From the NCBI GenBank assembly GCA_009667805.1, contig CM019063.1, forward strand, positions 194,846,954 through 194,910,953: a stretch of DNA of 64,000 nucleotides, read 5' to 3'. Of this stretch, positions 1,213-62,415 are shown one piece after another; positions within the stretch are counted from its first letter, which is position 1, and each line of letters opens with the position of its first letter. The DNA is from Leptobrachium leishanense. Lineage: Eukaryota > Chordata > Amphibia > Anura > Megophryidae. The notes beneath the pieces were generated by a model. The model was not told the origin of the DNA, searched no databases, and saw nothing but the letters and a program-made list of their open reading frames with translations. A program made the position numbers and the translations under genes.

Positions 1213-3344
1213 CTTTTTTTTTATATTTCAAAGTTTTATTGTAGAATAAAATGTCACAAAATCGACCAACGAGGAGAAGGCCTCGCAGGGCCTGACGCAG
1301 AATACATTTCAGTATCACTATCAGACAAAGGGTACTGCGAAGAGTCCGGTGCTGGGTGACATACAATATGAAAGGCGGTGACCCAAATTGGGAAGGGAGG
1401 GTGTTGGGGGGGAGGAGGGAGAAAATCTTGTGGCCATAACCGTGACGCTCCTGGCGCACTCCCCGAGGAGGCCGTGGAGGGATCATGTCACGGGGCCCAA
1501 GAGCCTGAGGGCCAATCATGGCCAACAATGCCATGGTGGCACACCCCGGGACTCCTGAAGGGAAAATAAATTTTAAAAAAAGGGGGGGGGAGCGGAATGG
1601 GTTCACCAGCGGCTATAAGCACCAAACCAAAAGGAGATGCAACTGGGGAGGGAGGAAAAAAAAAAGGGGGGGGAACAACAGGGACCGCGAAAGGAACAGA
1701 AACGGCACAGTAAATAACAAAACCGAACGCATCGCAATGCGACAGGAAAATCTCCCAAGAGGAGCATCACTTGAGTGGGGCTGAAGCCAGCCTCAGGGGG
1801 AAAGAGCATCCCGGGGGACATAAGACAGGGGGGGGGGAGAATGACGGCACACGTGAGATAGCTGCAAGTGCAGCGACAGCATGACATAAACCCCAGTCTT
1901 AGGGTAGCAGGCAACGTGTCCTCGTCAGTGTGGTCTAAACGCAACAACCTGCCAGGATAACAAGGGTTGAAAACGGAAGGGTGAGAGAGAGAGACATAGA
2001 AAGAGGGAGGGGAGAGGAGAGGAGAAAGCGAAGGAAAGGGAGAAAGGGCAAGTGAGAAGATAAAAGGGGGTAGGGCAACATGTCAAAAATCAGGACAGGT
2101 GCAACCGCCACTAGAAGTCACTCAATCCGAGTTGCCGGGGGGTGAAGGGGCACCCACAGACAGGTGCGTTTCAGCTGGGTCCGGCAGTGCCAGGAGTAGA
2201 CCCAGTGTACGAAGGTGTCCCTCAGCCACGTCTGCCGTAGGAGCCACAAGTGTCTGTCCATCCTCCGGGGAGATAATGAGGGAACCAGAAGCGCCCCATT
2301 TGTATCCGACGGCATGGGCGCGGAGGAGGGTCGTAACAGGTCGGAAATTGTCTCCTGGCAGCCAGGACTAGGAAAGGAAGGTCCCGATATATAGCGATGG
2401 AGGCTCCTTCAAAGGGGACCGCGCTGCCCAAAATAGTGAGGAGTGCAGGGTCGCCTCACGAAAGGTGACAAGCACATCTCGTGGTGCTTTCGCGGGGGCC
2501 ATGGCGGCATTCCGGACGCGTAGGGCCGTGAGGACTGGGTCTCGTGGTATTTCTGAGGGACTGAGAACAGTCTCCAAAAAACGCAAAATATACGATGCTA
2601 AGTCCAAGTCCGTAATAGTCTCCGGTACTCCCCGTACCTTTACGTTTCGGCGTCTGTGCCTTGATTCCAACCCAATCACTGCCGAGTGTAAGCTGCTGAT
2701 CTGCTGTTGCATCGCTTGTATGGTAGAAGAGGTTGCCGCCTGTGTCTCCTCCACCCTCTGTGTACGCGTCGTAAGATTCTCCACCTGGGCCCCGGTCTCC
2801 GCAACTGCTGCACCGAGAGTGTGTAGGTCCGCCTGCCAGGATTTCCTGGCGTCCCCCAAAAGTGTGCGTATGTCTCCCTTGGTGGCGGGAAGGGAGTCCC
2901 CCCTCAGGTCTGGCGGCGCCACGTGCGAGGCAGAAGGGGTTTCAGCTTCCTCCACCACCGGCTGTTCCTCCAAGTCAGTATCTGAGAGGGCAGCGTGCAA
3001 CCGCCGCACCCCCCATTCCCCATCCTAGTGATAGACGGATGTCGGGAGTTAGGGGTCCCTCCTGCACTCCACCACCCTTGCTCAAGAGAGTTGCAGCCCC
3101 ACCAGGCCTCCAAGATGGCCGCCAGAGGTGAATGGAGGCCGCAACACCACGGCCCCCTATCGAGACGCAGATCCGGAGTGGGGAACTAAACAGGCTCCGG
3201 AGGTCTACAGTCTGGTGGCCACGGCAGAGCAACACTTGGGGCGAATATTCTGGGCTTCAAGCACCCCAAAGTCCGCTAGTAAAGGAGGTAGGATCGGCGC
3301 TCAACACACTCACGTCCTCCTCGGTCCCCTGAAACAGTTTTGTG
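1213..3344 (-). mobile_element. ORF1-only (half-L1) non-LTR retrotransposon, copy 1
   Basis: A complete insertion on the minus strand. It is flanked by a 17-base target-site duplication, AAACCCCTTTCTTGTTC at 1196-1212 and AAACCCCTTTTTTGTTC at 3345-3361 (one mismatch). In transcript order it has about 335 bases of 5' UTR, one L1-type ORF1 (about 3009-2110), about 890 bases of pyrimidine-rich 3' UTR, and a tail ending in a short A-run (T-run at 1214-1222). No endonuclease or reverse transcriptase coding is present. The last ~80 transcript bases (CCCTGCGAGGCCTTCT, then a stretch ending in AATAAAAC) match the end of the second copy at about 24610-24689. This architecture is like mammalian HAL1 elements, which depend on L1 for movement. 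Family identity beyond L1-type is inference. Confidence 0.75.
2110..3009 (-). pseudogene. L1-type ORF1 protein (RNA-binding chaperone), frameshifted
   Basis: The first ~210 codons (3009-2368) are open. An acidic N-terminus is followed by the segment ATKGDIRTLLGDARKSWQAD, then a heptad-like region (about residues 60-115) expected to form the trimeric coiled coil. Next comes SRHRRRNVKVRGVPE, the usual entry to the L1 ORF1 RRM domain. The C-terminal domain continues in other frames: FEGASIAIYRDLPFL lies on the minus strand near 2400, and further conserved sequence runs to about 2118, so at least one or two frameshifts have broken it. L1 ORF1p binds its own RNA as a trimer and helps target-primed reverse transcription. 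The start at 3009 is the first ATG of the long frame, but an alternative frame opens slightly upstream. The domain order matches copy 2 at 22991-23880. Confidence 0.75.
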
Positions 3345-14503: not shown

Positions 14504-16855
14504 ATGGATGCAGTGCAAGTATTCGTCTTTGCTGCAACGGGGTACCTGTACCTGAAGAACAAGCGTAAACGGCGATTATGGGTTCATCCCATAAACGCTG
14601 CCAGACCCACGCATGGCCACTTTGTCACGCTGTACAGGCCACTGCGAGAGAGGGACCCGACGAAGTTCTACAACTACCTGCGGATGTCCATCCCCTCCTT
14701 TGACGAATTGTTGTCGAAGGTACGTGAGCCGTTGATGAAGAGGGACACCAATATGAGGGACCCCATTCCACCCGAGGAGATGCTGGTCATCACGTTGCGG
14801 TAAGTAACAGCAAACACCAGCATTCATATTGTCGGTGCCAGCCAGCAGAGATGTGCTCGAAGTCCAGAGCCCCCATTTTCGGTATGTTGTGATATGCCCA
14901 CCAGCCCATTTGCACAAGCATACCCACACACATTGCATAATATCACACATACTCAATAATGAATGACACAGACAACAGTGACAGCAACTTAAATCTTTTA
15001 TCCATAAGAAATGGTAATAAAATAAAATAACATTAACATACCATGTGTTGCTGAACATAACATAAATCAAACATAAAATAAAGAGTCCACGAACATGTGG
15101 CAAACAACAATGCAGAGCATAAAACAAGTGCATGAGCACGAAACAAACTACAAATCCTCATAATGAGGAGCATCCTCATAATAGGGATCGGGCATGTAAC
15201 CTTGGTATGCAGGCTGATAGGGTGGTTGTGACCTGTCACCAGGGGACATGGGTTGGTGTGGAGGCTCCGGACGCCGGTAATAATCACCAGCATATTGTGC
15301 CCTGGGAGGCACAGGTGGTACTGCAGGCTGGGTCAGGATGCTGTGTATGGTGTCCAATGTTCTTCTGCGGTACTCCAGCTTCTGAGCCAGGGTCATCTGG
15401 TGCAACATGGGGAGACACGAATGATGGAATGTCATGTCATCGTCATCCCAGAACCTGCAGCGTGGAGGTGTTGGTGGTGGTGGTGGTGGATGGTTAGCAT
15501 CCATGAATGTCACCATGGCACGCTCAAATGCACCAGCCGGTGCCCTTCTCCTTTTCTGCGCCGGCCTGGTGGTGTCAGCCCTTGCAGTAGGCAGCTCCTC
15601 GGCAGCGGTCTCCTCCTCCTCCTGCGAGTCTGCTCCGGCCTCTTCCGTCTCTTGTGAGCAGGTGGCAGTGGCACATGGCTGCACGTGTTGCTGTGCCCTG
15701 GATGTGGATGGTAGATCCATGCTGCCCACCATGGGTCTTGGTTCCAGGGTTCGTTGCAGGAATGACAGCTGCTCAGCATAGAGATGTAACTGCTGCCTCC
15801 TCGCCGCTGATCCAGAGCGTGCCGCTTCAGCATCTTTTTTGAGGACCCTTGTATAGTTGTCCCTGACTGTCCTCCATTTTGCGATGACTTCATGTGCTGC
15901 AAAACAGAAGAATGATATTAGGTGCGACTCACGGAATCTGATCATAACACACATTTATTTCTCCTTTTTTGATAGGTATCTTGCCAGTGGATGCAGTCTG
16001 CAGGACCTGCATTATAATTTCCGCGTTGGCAGATCTACAGCTGGGGAGATCGTCCGCAAGGTGTGCCAGACAATTTGGGACACGATGAGGGAAGAATGTT
16101 TGCCAACACCCACAGATGCGGCATGGGCGCAAATTGCTGCAACATTTTTGGAGCGAGCAAACTTTCCAAATTGCCTGGGAGCCATGGATGGCAAACATGT
16201 GCGCATAGTGAAGCCACTGCAGAGTGGCTCACTGTATCACAATTATAAACATTATTTTTCCATTGGCATAATGGCAGTGGCAGATGCCAACTATAATTTT
16301 GTTTGTGTGGATGTGGGGTCATACGGGAAAGATTCAGACTCCACACTCTTCAAGAACTCCACACTGTGGAATGCAATAGGAAGTGGGACACTGCACATCC
16401 CCGGACCCGCACCTTTGCCTGGCACAGATGTCCGCGTCCCCTACGCCTTTGTAGGGGATGAGGCTTTCGGACTTTCCACCCATCTCCTGCGACCATACTC
16501 TGGGACACACCTGACTGTCAAAAAGCGCGTGTTCAACTATAGGTTGCGTGCGAGACGGTATGTCGAGTGTACGTTCGGCATACTGAGCAACAAGTGGAGG
16601 ATTTTCCATAGGCCGCTAGATGTGCACATAGATTCTTCGGTCGATATAGTCAAGTGTTGTTGTGTGTTGCATAATTTTGTTCGTGCGCGGGATGGTGTTC
16701 ATTTTGATGACTCCTTGTCTGTTTGTGGTTTGGAGGAATTTATTAATGATGATGTTATGCCTGTGAATCGACACAGCAACAGGCATCGTGATGCACTGGC
16801 AAACTTTTTCAGTAGCGAAGCAGGACAGGTGCCCAGGCAGATGGGTCGCATTTGA
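14504..16855 (+). CDS. Harbinger transposase (HARBI1-like, DDE), two exons
   Basis: Exon 1 (14504-14799) encodes MDAVQVFVFAATGYLYLK and continues to VITLR. The donor is GTAAGT at 14800 and the acceptor TTTTTTGATAG ends at 15975. Exon 2 (15976-16855) begins in phase with YLASGCSLQDLHYNF. The joined length is 391 codons, normal for HARBI1-type nucleases. Visible catalytic residues are Asp in LGAMDGKHV (about residue 170), Asp in YGKDSDSTLF (about 220) and Glu in RYVECTFG (about 296). An N-terminal region (RVGRSTAGEIVRKVCQTIW) resembles the helix-turn-helix. With its partner protein the enzyme cuts TWA targets in the nucleus. No stop or frameshift is seen. The intron holds exon 2 of the antisense MADF gene. 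Confidence 0.92.
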
Positions 16856-17111
16856 CATGTCAGCTTCATGAATTTGTTTGACATTTACTTTTGTTTGGAT
16901 TAATAATGTGCATTTGATTATGAATAAAAATCATGTACTCACTCTGTACTCTCTGTTCTTGCGCAGACCATGTGTCGTATGCAGGGTACACCGCTCTTGT
17001 GACATCTGCCCATGCGTTGGCCTTGCTTATTTTGTCCTTGTACAGGTTGCTCGCAGTGTCCCACAATTCGGGGTGCTCCCCCACCTCGGTTATCAGCCTC
17101 TCCACGTCCAT
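15148..17111 (-). CDS. Harbinger MADF/Myb-like DNA-binding protein, two exons
   Basis: Exon 1 runs 17111-16943 (start MDVERLITEVGEHPELWD), with donor GTGAGT beginning at 16942. Exon 2 runs 15896-15148 after the acceptor TTTTGCAG. The 169 and 749 bases join in phase to 305 codons. Residues ~1-90 form a MADF/SANT-type trihelical domain (WDTASNLYKDKISKANAW, then WRTVRDNYTRVLKKD). The middle is acidic, with basic KRRRAP, and the C-terminus is proline- and tyrosine-rich. In known Harbinger elements this second protein recruits transposase to DNA and to the nucleus. It lies antisense to the transposase: its exon 2 sits in the transposase intron and its exon 1 lies beyond the transposase stop. The parallel gene at 45880-47860 supports the model. 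Confidence 0.85.
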
Positions 17112-17465
17112 TTCAGTGGCAGCGTCGAGTGTCCAGGATCAATTCTCCGGTCCCTAGAAAGTACTCCAGCCACGCCACGAATGTTCTGGAGTCTGGACGT
17201 GATGTAGGCCGCAGAACAGGTGCGTCTGACGTCTCCAACTCATGTACACATGCCGCTAGCCGCCCGTAGTGCATTCTGTGCGGCCGTTCTAGGGGTTCTA
17301 CGTTCTTGCCTGCCTTGCGTCCGTGGGCCACGGCCGTTGTGCGTCCGCAGTACAGTGCGGACGTACTTCGTGTATCGGGCTCCGATGGGCTTCCTGTCAT
17401 GCTATCACGGACGTACTTTTAGGCGCAATCACGGACGTGAACACTACGCTCGTCTGACACCAGCC

Positions 17466-41080: not shown

Positions 41081-42100
41081 GCCCGTGGCGCTGCGCCAGT
41101 ACCACATCCCACAAAAAGCCAGGCAACACACCCAAGTCCACCTTGAACTCTTGCTAAAGTACGGTTTTCTAAAGTTTTGTGCGTCTTCATGGAATACCCC
41201 GTTGCTTCAGTTCAGGAAGAGGGCACTCAAGAATTCACATCTGTACAGGATTTAAGGGCAGTTAATTCTGCCACAGTGACTTTAAACGGATTTGGCCCAA
41301 TTGAGTGTAACCTCCTAGCTCTGATACCCGGCAACACAGAATTCTACACTTAATTTAAAAAGATGCGTTCTTCTGTATCCGCTTGGCTCCAGCGAGTGAG
41401 CCATTGTTTGCCTTTTAGTGGGAAAATGCCCAGAATGGCTCCAAACATCAAATGACGTGCCTCCTTCAAGGTTTACAATCCTCAGGAGAGCGCTGAACAA
41501 AGACTCTCAGCCAGACAAAGCTACCCTATTGCAGTATGTTGCTGAACTCCTGCTTGCCTCACCAACTGAAGAAGATTGTTTCAATGCCACAAACAGGACT
41601 GTTAAGTATTTTATGCAAGGCAGGCTACAAAGTTTCTAAAAGAAAGGCCAAAATCTGCCAACGCAGTGTGAAATACCTAGGCTTTCAACTTACAGGTACC
41701 AAGCGTGCAATCCAGAACGCAAAGAATCAGTCTGCTGTGTCCCTCAACCACAGACTCGTATCCAAGTAAGAGAATTCTTGGGAGCTGCAGGCTTCTGTCG
41801 CCTGTGGATCCACAACTCTGCCATCATTGCCGAGCCTCTGTACCAAGCCACCAAAGGTGCAGAGCCTGACCTATTCATTTGGGTTGAAGAACAAACTGAG
41901 GCTGTCACCCAATTAAAGACTTTGTTGCTTGAAGCCACTGCCCTCCTGGTTGCAGAAGCAGACAAGCTCACAATAGGCCAAGAACTCTTTGTGAAAGTCC
42001 CTCATGCAGTCCAGACTCTTCTAGACCAAAAAGGCAATTACTGGTTCAGCAATGCAAGAATGACCAAGTACCAAGCCATGGAAATCTGGAACACCGAACA
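41081..42100 (+). pseudogene. ERV pol: reverse transcriptase fragment, inactive
   Basis: Shifted frames cover the RT from early fingers/palm (about 41090) through palm (41418-41639), thumb and connection (41636-42075). The polymerase motif at 41537-41548 reads YVAE, where the family has Tyr-X-Asp-Asp, so both catalytic Asp codons have changed. At least three frame changes and several stops are present. The connection-like sequence ends near 42075, after which RNase H would be expected but is absent. In a live virus this enzyme copies the RNA genome in the capsid. This copy cannot. Confidence 0.85.
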
Positions 42101-42129
42101 GAAACTTCGGTTCCCCAGAGAGGACTGGT

Positions 42130-42836
42130 TCAAGTTCACTCACCTATCAAGATTCCGGTATGTAAACCCATATCACCGCAAATGAAAGTCGAAACTCTGC
42201 TCTGTCTAAATACTGCGCTTCAAGATATGCCTAACGTTGACTTCTATATGAATAAGAGAAGATTTGCACCTCATGGAGAATTTATTGAAGATGTTCTTTG
42301 CCATTGGTACAGTGAATATGAACTTCTAGAGAAGCACCACAGCTATATCCAATGGTTGTTTCCCCTGCGTGAACAAGGCCAGAATGCACATGCAAAGCCT
42401 CATGAAGAACACCGCTGAAATCCAACATAGGCTACGGAGAGCCTATAAACTGATGCTGAATTTCTTCGGCGTAAAATTAGTGGGGGAAGAGGAGATAGAA
42501 GTGATACGAGACTCAAATTTTTCAACACGCTTCTCCAATTTGAATACTAACACCCACAATAACCTGAGAATTACCCGAATTGTGAGAAGCATGGGAGAGC
42601 TGGGAGCTGCACAATACCAAGCTCCGCTGGTGAAGTTCTTCCTGAAAGAGATACTGGTTGAAGATCAGCTGCAAAATATGAAAGAAAGTACCCTGAAGTA
42701 TTTCCTGCCGACTGTAAAGAATGAACATGAAAGAGATGCACTGTCTGAATATGCTCTGAAGCACAGAATACCCAAGTATGTCAAAAGACTTCTCTCAGTG
42801 GTGACACCCCTGTTGCCAACACCCATTACGCACTGA
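42130..42836 (+). pseudogene. OGFR-like (opioid growth factor receptor conserved region) domain inside ERV pol
   Basis: Frame 42182-42418 contains FYMNKRRFAPHGEFIEDVL and HSYIQWLFPLRE. After a frameshift near 42400, frame 42369-42836 contains RRAYKLMLNFFGVKL, HNNLRITRIVRSMGELG and YQAPLVKFFLKEILV. These are the hallmark blocks of the OGFR N-terminal conserved region in the right order and spacing, about 220 residues. OGFR is a host nuclear-envelope-associated receptor for met-enkephalin that restrains cell growth. The OGFR C-terminal repeats are absent. There is no intron-like gap, poly-A tail or target duplication around it. It lies between RT connection and integrase, replacing RNase H. Its second half is in the same frame as the following integrase, separated by one TGA at 42834. 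This is a captured host domain or a recombinant; which one is inference. Confidence 0.85.
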
Positions 42837-43998
42837 ACTCCGGCCTACTCTGAAAAGGAGAAGAAATGGCTCTCCGAAGAGCCCGGAGAATACAGAGAAG
42901 ACCGATGGTACCAGTTGGAGAGTGAAAGAATTGTCTTACCAGCCACCCTGGCACCTGAAATTGTCCGGGCCCTGCATTCCAGAACACATGGAGGAAAGAC
43001 ACCCATGGAGCAACAACTAGAACCGCACTTCTACGTTCCTGGACTCACCTCCGTCTGCAGAGTAATTGCCCAACAATGTGTCACTTGTGCTAAGAACAAC
43101 CCAAGGCAAGGGATAGTATAACCACCAGGAGTATTATCGGTTGGATTATCTCCAATGTCCTCCCTACAAATTGACTTTACTGTTCTCCCACCATGCAAAG
43201 GATATAAATATCTACTGGTGCTAGTATGCACACTAATGGGATGGGTTGAAGCCTACCCAACTCGAACAGAAAAGACTGCAGAGGTAGTAAGGTGCCTCGA
43301 GAGAAAATTATCCCAAGGTATGGACTTCCTCTTGAAATCGGATCAGACAATGGCCCAGCCTTCATACAAAGTTGTTTGCAGCAGCTCGCCCGATTGCATA
43401 CAGATTTCAAAGCTCTGGAAAAGAGGAAAGAATGAATAGAAATCCAAAGACATTGATGGCTAAAATATGCCAAGAAACATCACTGAAATGGCTGGATGTG
43501 TTGCCAATTGTTCTACTGCATGTGAGAAGCAGCCCTACCTCACTCCTAAAATTGAGCCCATACGAGATGATGTTTGGTTATCCCACCCCTTTGATAACTA
43601 GGTTGAGGGGGGATCCCCGGGTATTAGGAGAAACTGACCTACGCCAGCAAGTGATCAGGTTAGATCAGACGATGCAGAGCATGTATACATGGGTTAGTGA
43701 ACACATACCACATTTCCTATACTTACCTTTACACAGATACTGTCCTGGGGACTCAGTATGGGTTAAGGAATGGAAGGTAGACCCGTTAGGGACTAAATGG
43801 AGAGGTTTTTATGTTGTCTTGTTATCAACTCCCACAGCAGTGAAAGTGGCCGAAGTGGTGCCATGGATACACCACTCACGATTGAAACCTGCTGCAGAGG
43901 TTACGGACCAGGCATGGAAAGTGATAGCCAGTGAATCTGACCCACTGAAGCTACGTTTCCACCGTACCCAAGCAGCTGCACAGACCAGAGAGGAATAA
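42837..43998 (+). pseudogene. ERV pol: integrase, frameshifted
   Basis: The zinc-binding region (about 42915-43121) shows the His-His-Cys-Cys arrangement, with HSRTH upstream and CVTCAKNN downstream. A stop lies at 43119. The catalytic core follows: Asp in the frame starting 43155 (LQIDFT), Asp in KSDQT near 43340, and Glu in the GKEERMN stretch near 43425, consistent with DD35E. Frame changes between about 43360 and 43430 break it. The C-terminal part (43440-43998) is one open frame ending at a TAA. Its role would be joining viral DNA to the host chromosome in the nucleus. The zinc-binding frame and the upstream OGFR half share a reading frame. Confidence 0.85.
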
Positions 43999-44283: not shown

Positions 44284-45450
44284 GTGATGTCAGCCCCTAT
44301 TGTGTTGACACCGGAATTTGACATGACTGTCCTACCGGCACAGGATCGCCGGAAACGAGAATTGACAAGACCAGAGGATAAACTGCTTATTAAATTTACG
44401 TATGCATATGCAAAGAAATCAGGATATGAATCTTGTTGGGTTTGTAACAAATTGAACCAGGGGTCATCAGTTATCCCCTACCTTAGTTGTACCCCTTAAC
44501 TTGTCCAGTTTCCCGGTTAATAAGAGCGTGGTGGCACCTAGTGTTCTTAAACTGACTAAGAGCTTAATTATGCCAAAAACAAACCACACTATTCAGATCA
44601 ATAATTGGGCTTACTTCCCTTTATGGTGTTTTAAACTAAAGAAAAATCAGGCCCCACCTAGTTCAATGTGTAACGAATCCTTGTTTAATGCAACACTAGA
44701 TGTATCTGATCCAGGGTCATTGGGAAATAGTCTCCAAGTAATGGTTTGTTGCGGACACTTATGTCACATGTGGATAAATACTGATATAAAGACGTGGTGT
44801 TACCTGGCCTGGGTAGTCCCCCTCCAACGGATCAAAGGTGATACCCTGGACCAAGGGACACCACAACCACGTTATTCCTTAAATTTTGCTAAACGAGAAC
44901 TGTTTTCCAAAGGTGATATGGCCTGGTCTTGGTTTCCTTCCTTCACAGGATGCGGCATTGAAATGATGAGAAGACTTAATATGTTGTACTAAAGGATGAA
45001 ATTGTGAATATTACTATTGCTGACATCCAACTGTTGAATGCGGAGCTCCGAGAAATTCGTAAATTAGAGTTATATCAGAAAATAGCTATTGAACAGATTC
45101 AGGCTGTATTAAATGGAATGTGTGAAATGACGATACAATATGAATGTTGTACTTATCTCCGCACAGCTACTGATGATGTACCTGAATATTTTGATGTAAT
45201 TCTCAAGCACCAAGAGAAAGTGTCCCATCTGGGGTACATTTGGGTCATGGTTTGGCTCAATCATAAGTGCCATTTACAGGGTAGGGTCCCTGATCCTCAT
45301 TGGTATACTAATTCTTCTTATCTGTGCACTAACCTACAAATTAGCCATGTGTCTGTGGCCAATCTGCCGTAAATTCCTGAAGCCAGAAGATAGGCCCCTG
45401 GGGGACACTTCAAATTACCATCCAATGAGCCAAGTAACCCCTACTGATTA
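44284..45450 (+). pseudogene. ERV envelope glycoprotein, degenerate
   Basis: Three shifted frames. 44284-44499 has a CWVC motif typical of surface-subunit ends in gamma-type envelopes. 44501-44992 contains several cysteines and N-glycosylation sites (NESL, NATL). 45004-45240 is a transmembrane-subunit ectodomain with a heptad-rich helix and a cysteine motif spaced C-x7-CC (CEMTIQYECC). A last frameshift near 45245 moves the membrane anchor (LILIGILILLICALTYKL) and short tail into another frame, ending near 45450. Envelope proteins mediate entry; this one is broken by at least two stops and three frame changes. Confidence 0.75.
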
Positions 45451-45879: not shown

Positions 45880-47860
45880 ATGATGTCTGGACCAGAGATG
45901 GACGTCGAGAGGCTCATCAGCGCTGTGGGGGAGCATCCAGGGATCTGGGATACGGCCTGCGAGCGTTATAAGGACAAGGGGAAGAAGGCGAGCGCATGGG
46001 TCGAGGTGTCCCGTCAGGTGTACCCGGAGTACGATACGTGGTCCGAGAAGGAGCAGCACATACAGAGTGAGTATAATATTATTTAATTCATAATCCCATA
46101 AATGTAAATCACAATAATAATAATAAACAAACGAAATCATTGATGTGAAACTCAAATGCTCCCCAGCTGCCAGGGCACCTCACCTGCATCACTGATGAAA
46201 TAATTAGATAGAGCATCGCGATACCTGTTGCTGTATCTATTCACAGCTATGATGTCATAGTTCACATCATCCTCAAGACCGACAACTGTGAGGGTATCGT
46301 CAAAATTAAAACCATCCCTGGCCCGCACATAGTTATGTAGAATGCAACAGCATTTCACTATGTCCACACAGAAGTCCACATTGACATCCAGCGGTCTATG
46401 TAGAATCCTCCACTTGTTGGTCAGTATGCCAAAGGTACACTCCACATACCGTCTCGCCCGCGACAGCCTATAATTAAACACCCGCTTCTTCACAGTCAGG
46501 TGTGTCCCTGAGTAGGGCCTTAGGAGGTGTGTGGATAGTCCGAATGCTTCGTCACCCACGAAGGCATAGGGGACTGTCACGTCACTGCCAGGCAATGGTG
46601 CGGCTCTGGGGATGTTCAGGGTCCCACTCTCAATTTCATTCCACAGTGTGGAGTTCCTGAACAGTGTGGAGTCAGAGTCCTTGCCGTATGAACCGACATC
46701 CACATACACGAAACTATAGTTGGCATCTGACACCGCCAGTAGGCCAATAGAAAAGTAATGTTTATAATTCTGATACAGTGAGCCACTGTGCGGTGGCTTC
46801 ACTATGCGGACATGTTTGCCATCCACGGCTCCCAGGCAGTTTGGAAAGTTGGCTCTCTCCCAGAATCCTGCTGCAATTTCCAGACATGCCGTATGTGTCG
46901 GTCTTGGCAAACATTCGCCCTTCATGGTCTCCCATATTGTTTGGCACACCTTGCGGACGATCTCACCAGCTGTTGATCTGCCAACGCGGAAGCTATAATG
47001 CAGATCCTTCAAACTGCACCCACTAGCGAGATACCTAGAAGACAAAACAAAAATGTTTGAATATGATCACATACCATGAACACAAGCTAATGTCACTCTC
47101 ATCATGTTTTGCAGCACAAGAGGCGATGAACAAATGGCGCACAGTACGCGACAACTACATGCGCGTCCAGAAGAAGCAGGCCATGGCTGCGCGCTCTGGA
47201 GCTGGTGCGAAAAAGGTCCGTGGCTACATATATGCAGAGCAGCTATCGTTCCTCCGCAGGACCCAGGAGCCGCGCAGGAGTGTCAGCAGCATGGACCAGC
47301 CATCGACCTCCGGCACCCAGGCACAACAAATGGTGCCAGGAGATTATGCCAGCTGCCAGGAGGAGGAGAACCAGGGTGGTGCTGAGTCGCAGATGGAGGA
47401 GGATTTGGCGACACCACAGGTGGCAGGTACCGCGACAACGGTCAGCACCAGACCTGGCCAGAAGAGAAGGGCACAAGCTGCAGACCTCGAGCAGGCCATG
47501 CTCACCTTCATGGAGGCACAGACCACCCATGCACACCAACGCTGCATGCTTGCGGACTCCGTGGACATGTCTTTCTCCAATGCATGTACGCTCCTCCTGA
47601 ACAAGATGAGCGAGGCAGAGAAAATGGAGTATCGCCACAGATCTCTGGCAATATTGGAGGACATCCTTTCACGTCCCCATCACGCAGCCGCCTACCATGC
47701 TGTGCCACAATCCGCCAGTGGATCTTCCGTCTCCAGTGAGGTGCTATCCACCCACCCAGCCATGCCCCCTGGAGCCAGGCCACACACGGAGTCGGGGTCC
47801 AGCTGTAGCCACACCACCGGCCCTCATGACCCAGATGCTCCGCGGTATCAGCAACTTTGA
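45880..47860 (+). CDS. Harbinger MADF/Myb-like DNA-binding protein, two exons
   Basis: Exon 1 runs 45880-46066 and exon 2 runs 47115-47860, with donor GTGAGT at 46067 and acceptor TTTTGCAG ending at 47114. They join in phase to 310 codons. The start at 45880 (MMSGPEMDVERL) is the first ATG; MDVERL at 45898 matches the start of the homologue at 17111. The MADF domain spans about residues 7-95 (WDTACERYKDKGKKASAWVE, then KWRTVRDNYMRVQKKQ). An acidic, glutamine-rich middle with QKRRAQ and a Ser/Pro-rich tail follow. Its partner transposase lies antisense; exon 2 is inside the transposase intron. It likely guides transposase to the termini. Confidence 0.85.
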
Positions 47861-55536: not shown

Positions 55537-56148
55537 CAGGGCCAGCTCTAGCATTTGTGGGGCCAGCTCTAGCATTTGTGGGGCCAGCTCTAGCATTTGT
55601 GGGGCCAGCTCTAGCATTTGTGGGGCCAGCTCTAGCATTTGTGGGACCAGCTCTAGCATTTGTGGGGCCAGCTCTAGCATTTGTGGGGCCAGCTCTAGCA
55701 TTTGTGGGGCCAGCTCTAGCATTTGTGGGGCCAGCTCTAGCATTTGTGGGGCCAGCTCTAGCATTTGTGGGGCCAGCTCTAGCATTTGTGGGGCCAGCTC
55801 TAGCATTTGTGGGGCCAGCTCTAGCATTTGTGGGACCAGCTCTAGCATTTGTGGGGCCAGTTGCAAGGTAAAACGAGGGGCCACTTCGTAATTTCCGTTT
55901 TCTTTGAACCTGTTTTTAAAGTTGAAGAGGCAGAGCTGTGGGTGGTAAGGGAAAAAAATGTAAGTAAAATCACCCCAAATTAATAAAAAATAATTGGGCA
56001 AATATTCAAGAGCAAAAAAGGGACTTCTATTTTCAAATGAGTATCCCTTTTAAAGTAACAAATGCTGAGGTTGGCAGCACATTAGGGGCTGCTTGAAGCG
56101 CAGGGCGAGGTGTGATTCACCAATCACACCTTCTAAAAGCCGGCCCTG
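55537..56148. mobile_element. MITE whose left end is tandemly amplified
   Basis: The left terminus CAGGGCCAGCTCTAGCATTT is matched at the right by the complement of CAGGGCCGGCTTTTAG. The CAGGGCC start suggests a hAT-type element, but no 8-base duplication was found. The terminal 21 bases are repeated 15 times (55538-55852). The right half contains GGTGTGATTGGTGAATCAC-like self-complementary sequence. Confidence 0.55.
55538..55852 (+). repeat. 21-bp minisatellite, 15 units
   Basis: Fifteen head-to-tail copies of a 21-base unit built on GGGGCCAGCTCTAGC plus ATTTGT. Units 6 and 15 share the variant GGGACC, nine units (189 bases) apart, which points to duplication of a nine-unit block. Because 21 is divisible by three, all frames look open and give artificial 7-residue repeat proteins. 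Confidence 0.95.
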
Positions 56149-61290: not shown

Positions 61291-61304
61291 CATCGCGGGG
61301 GGGA

Positions 61305-62415
61305 ACCATGAGCTGGGGGGCATACCCATGTGTGAGCTGTGGGGGCATATCCATGAGCTGGGGGCAATACCCATGTGTGAGCTGGGGGCATATCCATGAG
61401 CTGGGGGGCATACCCATGTGTGAGTTGTGGGGGCATATCCATGTGTGAGCTGTGGGGGCATATCCATGAGCTGGGGCAATACCCATGTGTGAGCTGGGGG
61501 CATATCCATGAGCTGGGGGCAATACCCATGTGTGAACTTGGGGGGCATATCCATGAGCTGGGGGGCATACCCATGTATGAGCTGTGGGGGCATATCCATG
61601 AGCTGGGGGCAATACCCATGTGTGAGCTGGGGGGGCATACCCATGTGTGAGCTGGGGGGGCATACCCATGTGTGAGCTGTGGGGGCATATCCATGAGCTG
61701 GGGGCAATACCCATATTGTGAGCTGGAGGGGGCATATCCATGAGCTGGGGGGCATACCCATGTGTGAGCTGTGGGGGCATATCCATGAGCTGGGGGCAAT
61801 ACCCATGTGTGAGCTGGGGGGCATATCCATGAGCTGGGGGGCATACCCATGTGTTAGCTGTGGGGGCATATCCATGTGTGAGCTGTGGGGGCATATCCAT
61901 GAGCTGGGGCAATACCCATGTGTGAGCTGGGGGGCATATCCATGAGCTGGGGCAATACCCATGTGTGAACTTGGGGGGCATATCCATGAGCTGGGGGGCA
62001 TACCCATGTATGAGCTGTGGGGGCATATCCATGAGCTGGGGGCAATACCCATGTGTGAGCTGGGGGGGCATACCCATGTGTGAGCTGGGGGGGCATACCC
62101 ATGTGTGAGCTGGGGGCAATACCCATGTGTGAGCTGGGGGGGCATACCCATGTGTGAGCTGGGGGGCATACCCATGTGTGAGCTGGGGCATATCCATGAG
62201 CTGGGGCATATCCATGTGTGTGCTGGGGCATATCCATGAGCTGGGGCATATCCATGAGCTGGGGGCAATATCCATGTGTGAGCTGGGGGCAATATCCATG
62301 TGTGAGCTGGGGCATATCCATGTGTGAGCTGGGGGCAGTATCCATGTGTGAGCTGGGGCAGTATGAATATATATATATATATATATCGGGGGGGATATAC
62401 ATGTGAGCTGGGGGC
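61305..62415. repeat. Minisatellite of ~20-24 bp units, 1.1 kb
   Basis: Several dozen units of GAGCTGGGGGCATATCCAT and GAGCTGGGGGCAATACCCAT with an optional GTGT spacer. Higher-order blocks repeat; for example, the order of units near 61400-61650 recurs near 61855-62060. An (AT)n run lies at 62367-62386. All six frames look long and open but are repeat artefacts. Confidence 0.93.

Follow-up and report, generated by a model that had tools for sequence, protein, structure and literature searches.

An OGFR domain within pol of an amplified endogenous retrovirus family of the frog Leptobrachium leishanense: evidence for host gene capture and purifying selection

Results

Domain structure of the copy in the window

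We analyzed a window of 64,000 nt from contig CM019063.1 (assembly GCA_009667805.1, positions 194,846,954 to 194,910,953, forward strand) of the frog Leptobrachium leishanense, which carries a damaged endogenous retrovirus (ERV) with the conserved region of the cellular protein OGFR (opioid growth factor receptor) inside its polymerase gene pol. Pfam hmmscan matched this region, OGFr_N (PF04664), in two overlapping frames within 42221-42767, namely profile positions 4-64 at 42221-42403 (E-value 2.1e-21, 76.9 bits) and 71-193 at 42399-42767 (E-value 2.2e-43, 148.6 bits), with a curated cut-off of 22 bits. Thus, the OGFR domain called inside ERV pol by the original prediction was confirmed. The integrase domains Integrase_H2C2, rve (below its own cut-off) and MLVIN_C follow 3′ of OGFR on the same strand (Table 1); MLVIN_C, present both here and in the predicted L. 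leishanense protein P0030, is in keeping with a class I (gamma-like) ERV.

The window copy is broken. Its OGFR segment of 697 nt, which falls short of that in many copies by about 24 nt, changes frame near 42400, a TGA follows at 42834-42836, and the integrase is frameshifted. Pairwise alignment with another copy (L002) showed that 691 nt are absent between 42077 and 42078, which form the RNase H region in copies with an open frame. Reverse transcriptase (RT) connection sequence is found upstream of OGFR in the window because of this deletion. No Pfam match above cut-off was obtained by hmmscan for this upstream stretch (41640-42077), but its naming as RT is supported by the predicted L. leishanense protein P0025, in which RVT_1 precedes RNase H and OGFR. 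The insertion site first proposed was therefore correct with regard to integrase, which the domain precedes, but not with regard to RT, since the domain really lies between RNase H and integrase.

Position of OGFR in pol

Several copies, e.g., L021 and L048, have RNase H and OGFR in an unbroken frame; that of L048, 481 residues long, matches the predicted L. leishanense protein P0018 throughout with 100% identity. RNase H, OGFR and integrase were found in one frame in P0030 (RNase H, OGFR, H2C2, rve, MLVIN_C), in P0024 (also from L. leishanense; RNase H, OGFR, H2C2) and in P0137 (882 aa, representing a cluster of 49 sequences). When four OGFR-bearing L. leishanense proteins were aligned with six OGFR-less relatives from the protein database, OGFR appeared as an insertion of approximately 200-230 residues in the linker that leads from the RNase H end to the N-terminal extension of integrase. 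In OGFR-less relatives from the same genome this linker is uninterrupted, i.e., empty, and the pattern PVVAA..PAPL.EW.PVYSE to the right of the insertion point is common to the OGFR-less L096 and the OGFR-bearing P0137. The open frame of one OGFR-less relative comprises 1204 codons, compared to 1440 codons in nine OGFR-bearing places, a difference of 236. In non-primate lentiviruses, the dUTPase is located between RNase H and integrase; dUTPase models gave no match in nine proteins scanned at an E-value of 0.01.

An OGFR-bearing family in the genome

Searching the 3.54-Gb genome of the same species with the OGFR DNA of the window yielded 1079 first-look candidates; of the 40 matches scored, one was the window (100%), and the remaining 39, some of them partial, were 86-99% identical. 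An integrase query gave 2412 candidates, of which 40 were scored as well. Among 30 fetched integrase loci, OGFR was present directly upstream in 29, including the window (28 of the 29 others), and was partial only in L033 and L046, while L049 contained neither RNase H nor OGFR in the upstream 1.5 kb. The expectation that several ERV loci share the same junctions was thereby borne out, and the junctions are not private to a single locus, as they would be for a retropseudogene. In L033, an OGFR-bearing copy, approximately 1 kb (2300-3303) is inserted in the C-terminal region of integrase. A query with the PF04664 profile resulted in 5871 candidates; all 150 places scored exceeded the cut-off, with open frames of at least 1000 codons in 27 and of exactly 1440 codons in the nine mentioned above.

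The TGA between OGFR and integrase is common to 57 of 60 window-type rows (TGG in two, a gap in one). By coordinates, these rows represent 49 distinct loci, 46 of which have the TGA, the window included. The window subfamily is one that spread despite a stop after OGFR, via readthrough or help in trans.

Phylogeny of the OGFR and RNase H domains

In an OGFR tree of 43 rows rooted on eight fish, 19 ERV domains form one clade (support 99/97). Next to this clade stand the three host sequences of Leptobrachium (94/89); Spea, other frogs and mammals fall elsewhere in the tree. The nearest host relative in the tree is the OGFR of L. leishanense itself (P0002, P0003), which shares PF04664 with the ERV copies and matches 41-42% of the L048 query at an identity of 54%. 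When 52 domains were placed in an unrooted tree, the 27 retroviral ones were split from the 25 of hosts at 100/100; 22 of the retroviral domains had been labelled beforehand, the other five only once their flanks were read. A predicted protein of Phyllobates terribilis (P0029) has two tandem OGFr_N domains, and no retroviral domain was found in it.

A second tree of 40 rows was built from RNase H without using OGFR (P0031 was dropped for length). Again, the 16 OGFR-bearing rows form one clade (95/88), placed beside four OGFR-less frog ERVs of the same genome, and these 20 rows are joined at 96/97 against 20 ERV proteins of other vertebrates or unnamed sources. Both trees fit a single capture, which probably took place after the split from the OGFR-less sister.

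Origin of the captured segment

Host OGFR-like genes were located at C12:9.488-9.515 Mb and on C2726. Several of their first exons lie close together (G000:C12:9488510-9515198 and C2726), apparently in a tandem cluster. Unlike the ERV copies, the host paralogues have introns, and their predicted proteins are devoid of RNase H and integrase. For the C2726 paralogue, the fetched 7.5 kb yielded the first three exons but none of the later ones, and the exon breaks correspond to residues 32/33, 62/63 and 87/88 of P0002. The alignment of the ERV copy L087, which has RNase H and integrase matches on its flanks, starts at host residue 3 and passes all three junctions with no intron-size gap (63% identity); the proposed comparison with host exons thus gave an intronless copy. 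Copy L088 retains the N-terminal OGFR part, too, with RNase H upstream. Since the host introns are absent and the N-terminus is retained in L087 and L088, the source was therefore a spliced mRNA.

A capture that began at or next to the start codon (about OGFR residue 1-3), with trimming later on, is strongly supported by these alignments. Later lineages have a shortened N-terminal part, and the linkers preceding the domain differ in what they keep of it: host similarity is detectable in the 119 residues of the sister lineage L086 (z 4.3; 2 of 500 shuffles as good), lower in the 92 residues of L085 (z 2.6; 9 of 500 shuffles) and weak in the 81 residues of the window type, represented by P0018 (z 2.5; 15 of 500 shuffles), while none was seen in the linkers of L083 (34 residues) and P0137 (21 residues). 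Capture from the host was rightly predicted, with the correction that it began near OGFR residue 1-3 and was trimmed afterward. The trees fit one old event in a lineage that retained the domain under the selection described below, rather than a local recombination.

Paired long terminal repeats

Three proviruses were examined for pairs of long terminal repeats (LTRs). The first, apparently located within an array of tandem repeats, has an LTR pair of 689 bp with two mismatches (99.7%) and the target duplication ACGG; in the second, the LTRs are 97.1% identical over an alignment of 681 columns and the duplication is CAAG. Hence, TG...CA ends and 4-bp duplications are present at two of the three, and duplications of this length fit class I ERVs as described in PMC4299795. 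Replicating proviruses have thus carried the OGFR domain with them, in at least one case recently.

Selection and conservation of the domain

Over 195 codons in 27 copies, omega was estimated at 0.219. When omega was set to 1 and kappa left at its estimated value, the log likelihood (lnL) dropped from -6562.5 to -6864.2, i.e., the free omega gains 302. Without near copies (14 rows), omega was 0.204, and synonymous distances exceed 1 or are saturated in many of 105 pairs. This codon comparison shows a signature of purifying selection on the OGFR domain. Consistent with it, the 56 columns invariant in host OGFR are retained on average to 88% in 19 ERV rows, as opposed to 26% at host-variable columns, and 38 of the 56 are kept by at least 90% of these rows. 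In a predicted model, the OGFR part is mostly helical and has a pLDDT near 90; a search by sequence found no related solved structure for the conserved region.

Other features of the window

Features of the ERV and its surroundings are listed in Table 1. The frames at the env position gave no Pfam match, but contain CxxC- and CX6CC-like motifs, which we take to be an env pattern; the DNA shared with other copies ends where the fetched flanks of these end. Outside the ERV, the DDE_Tnp_4 transposase and the adjoining MADF/Myb-like frame presumably represent the layout of a PIF/Harbinger element.

Table 1. Features of the ERV copy and neighboring elements in the window (nt positions within the window).
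Feature	Position	Strand	Evidence
RT 3′ part and connection sequence, frameshifted, broken	41640-42077	+	approx. 98% DNA match in many same-genome copies
Deletion point, 691 nt of RNase H region lost compared to L002	42077-42078	+	pairwise alignment; spacing in other copies; RNase_H (PF00075) in P0018
Linker, probably decayed OGFR N-terminal segment (host exons 1-2)	42078-42220	+	weak alignment with host N-terminus
OGFr_N (PF04664), split over two frames by small deletion near 42400	42221-42767	+	hmmscan
End of captured segment, then viral linker again	42768-42833	+	RNase H-integrase linker aligned with OGFR-less relatives
TGA between OGFR and integrase	42834-42836	+	common to most fetched copies
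Integrase zinc-binding domain (Integrase_H2C2)	42939-43106	+	hmmscan, E 2.5e-10
Integrase core (rve), frameshifted	43152-43313	+	hmmscan, E 2.7e-06, below curated cut-off
Integrase C-terminal domain of murine leukemia virus (MLV) type (MLVIN_C)	43732-43893	+	hmmscan, E 6e-16
Probable env remnants	44284-45369	+	DNA common to other copies up to approx. 45100
Segment matching 15854-17114, inverted	45895-47157		77%
DDE_Tnp_4 transposase, 297 aa	46155-47045	-	E 2.2e-34
MADF/Myb-like frame, weak	47057-47857	+	below its cut-off
Tandem repeat array	55539-55860		self-comparison
Tandem repeat array	61297-62358		self-comparison

Discussion

Capture of a host OGFR sequence and its retention as a selected pol module very probably explain the family described here. 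An MLV-like (class I) retrovirus of a Leptobrachium frog took up, probably once, an intronless copy of host OGFR coding sequence that starts near residue 1-3 and runs through the whole conserved region, and this stretch was inserted into the RNase H/integrase linker of pol without clear loss of viral sequence. Afterward, the OGFR-bearing lineage diversified, lost N-terminal parts by trimming and amplified widely, while the conserved domain of approximately 205 residues was kept in frame under purifying selection. Apparently, the domain was retained for its usefulness to the virus.

As to what this usefulness might be, the OGFR domain would be made within Gag-Pol and packaged together with the polymerase. 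The viral protease may then free it, or it may stay attached to integrase or RNase H, and each infecting particle would deliver it to a new cell in the manner of the lentiviral dUTPase. We consider it rather likely that OGFR is such a virion-packaged, standing part of Pol beside integrase, which goes back to one capture of mRNA and has persisted in deeply diverged lineages. For integration, such viruses depend on cycling target cells. The likeliest action, suggested here tentatively and at somewhat less than even chance, would be that of a decoy or dominant-negative factor, in the form of a truncated OGFR, directed at the growth-inhibiting OGF-OGFR pathway of the host, by which the target cell is kept cycling. 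In human pancreatic cancer cells, growth is restrained via p21 by Met-enkephalin and OGFR, as reported in PMC2253554. A different action, which we regard as somewhat less likely, is that the module serves the pre-integration complex: attached to integrase or RNase H, it would assist entry into the nucleus or tether the complex to chromatin, acting via partners of host OGFR. The position of OGFR directly before integrase would suit such an adaptor, and host OGFR is described as nuclear and cytoplasmic with nuclear localization sequences (PMC11749475); an interaction of OGFR with TERF2IP has been reported in the literature as well.

Several observations speak against a captured and selected pol module. 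OGFR-bearing pol was seen here in one species. The two copies with the long capture, L087 and L088, are both broken, L087 by stop codons, and no integrase match was found in the 3 kb of L088. The fetched pieces of the third provirus yielded no LTR pair, and a direct-repeat search detected none around the window copy. In window-type copies, the downstream integrase is not in an unbroken frame with OGFR (TGA in the 57 of 60 rows). For the selection test, 20 lineage rows were taken from the best PF04664 scores, which biases it toward conserved copies. When the seven window-type near copies were analyzed alone, omega was 0.62, as expected for decaying insertions. OGFR, with an omega of 0.234 (nine rows), is less constrained than RNase H (0.091, four rows) and integrase (0.089, one pair), and most ERV rows deviate at four of the 56 positions invariant in the host.

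The relaxed omega of the near copies, the lower constraint of OGFR relative to RNase H and the amplification of one subfamily despite the TGA would also be compatible with a mere passenger, that is, a spacer tolerated in the RNase H/integrase linker and riding on a successful element. Such a passenger is, however, improbable and largely contradicted by the omega of the 14 rows and the lnL gain in the 27, and core residues kept while synonymous differences are often saturated are unexpected for a mere spacer. That the host OGFR-like genes are themselves derived from the virus, or that OGFR was captured more than once, is very improbable: the Leptobrachium host sequences do adjoin the ERV clade, but host OGFR-like genes have introns, the OGFR of fish, mammals and other frogs falls outside this clade, and multiple capture is already contradicted by the single OGFR-bearing clade in each of the two trees. 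Finally, a host OGFR retropseudogene that landed in one ERV copy would account for the absence of introns, but was rejected as an explanation of the family and is hardly credible, as OGFR is found upstream of nearly all fetched integrase loci, in deeply diverged lineages and in open-frame proviruses, two of them with paired LTRs and 4-bp duplications.

An earlier description of OGFR within retroviral pol was not found in a full-text literature search, in agreement with the original prediction, which knew of none. Other known retroviral captures of host genes are, to our knowledge, separate frames or replacements. Walleye dermal sarcoma virus, for instance, codes for a retroviral cyclin, a captured regulator of cell growth in a cold-blooded vertebrate host, in a separate accessory frame, in contrast to the pol-internal fusion of frog OGFR. 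The nearest precedents, together with the lentiviral dUTPase, are crocodilian ERVs with KIT-ligand and, in CrocERV31, nectin3, for which the account in PMC4299795 likewise gives host coding sequence from mRNA, with no ERV domain lost in the KIT-ligand case; it also reports purifying selection, presumably for KIT-ligand. However, these concern other genes and hosts, and nectin3 is described as replacing another part (PMC4299795), whereas frog OGFR forms a fusion within pol, at the RNase H/integrase boundary. The dUTPase of non-primate lentiviruses is likewise an extra folded domain coded within pol (PMC4299795), but OGFR is without known enzyme activity, its donor belongs to the same frog lineage, and the virus is of class I. 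A second kind of virus with an OGFR domain is represented by the OGFR-labelled protein of Marseillevirus LCMAC202 (BFVD A0A481YX38), which has an OGFR-like fold (E-value 1.0e-08, TM-score 0.75 on the target). Yet, this is a separate protein of 186 residues with 22% identity, from a giant DNA virus. Among the threatened species shown as hosts of invading ERVs in a figure of PMC10435555 is L. leishanense; the main text of that paper does not contain the word “opioid.”

With respect to annotation, many predicted Leptobrachium proteins that are named after their OGFR domain are retroviral. The family also provides a natural experiment on the role of the OGFR conserved region and on the domains which Pol can accept. 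A single genome displays the stages of this process, from the empty linker over the long capture, trimming and selection to a copy with 99.7% identical LTRs.
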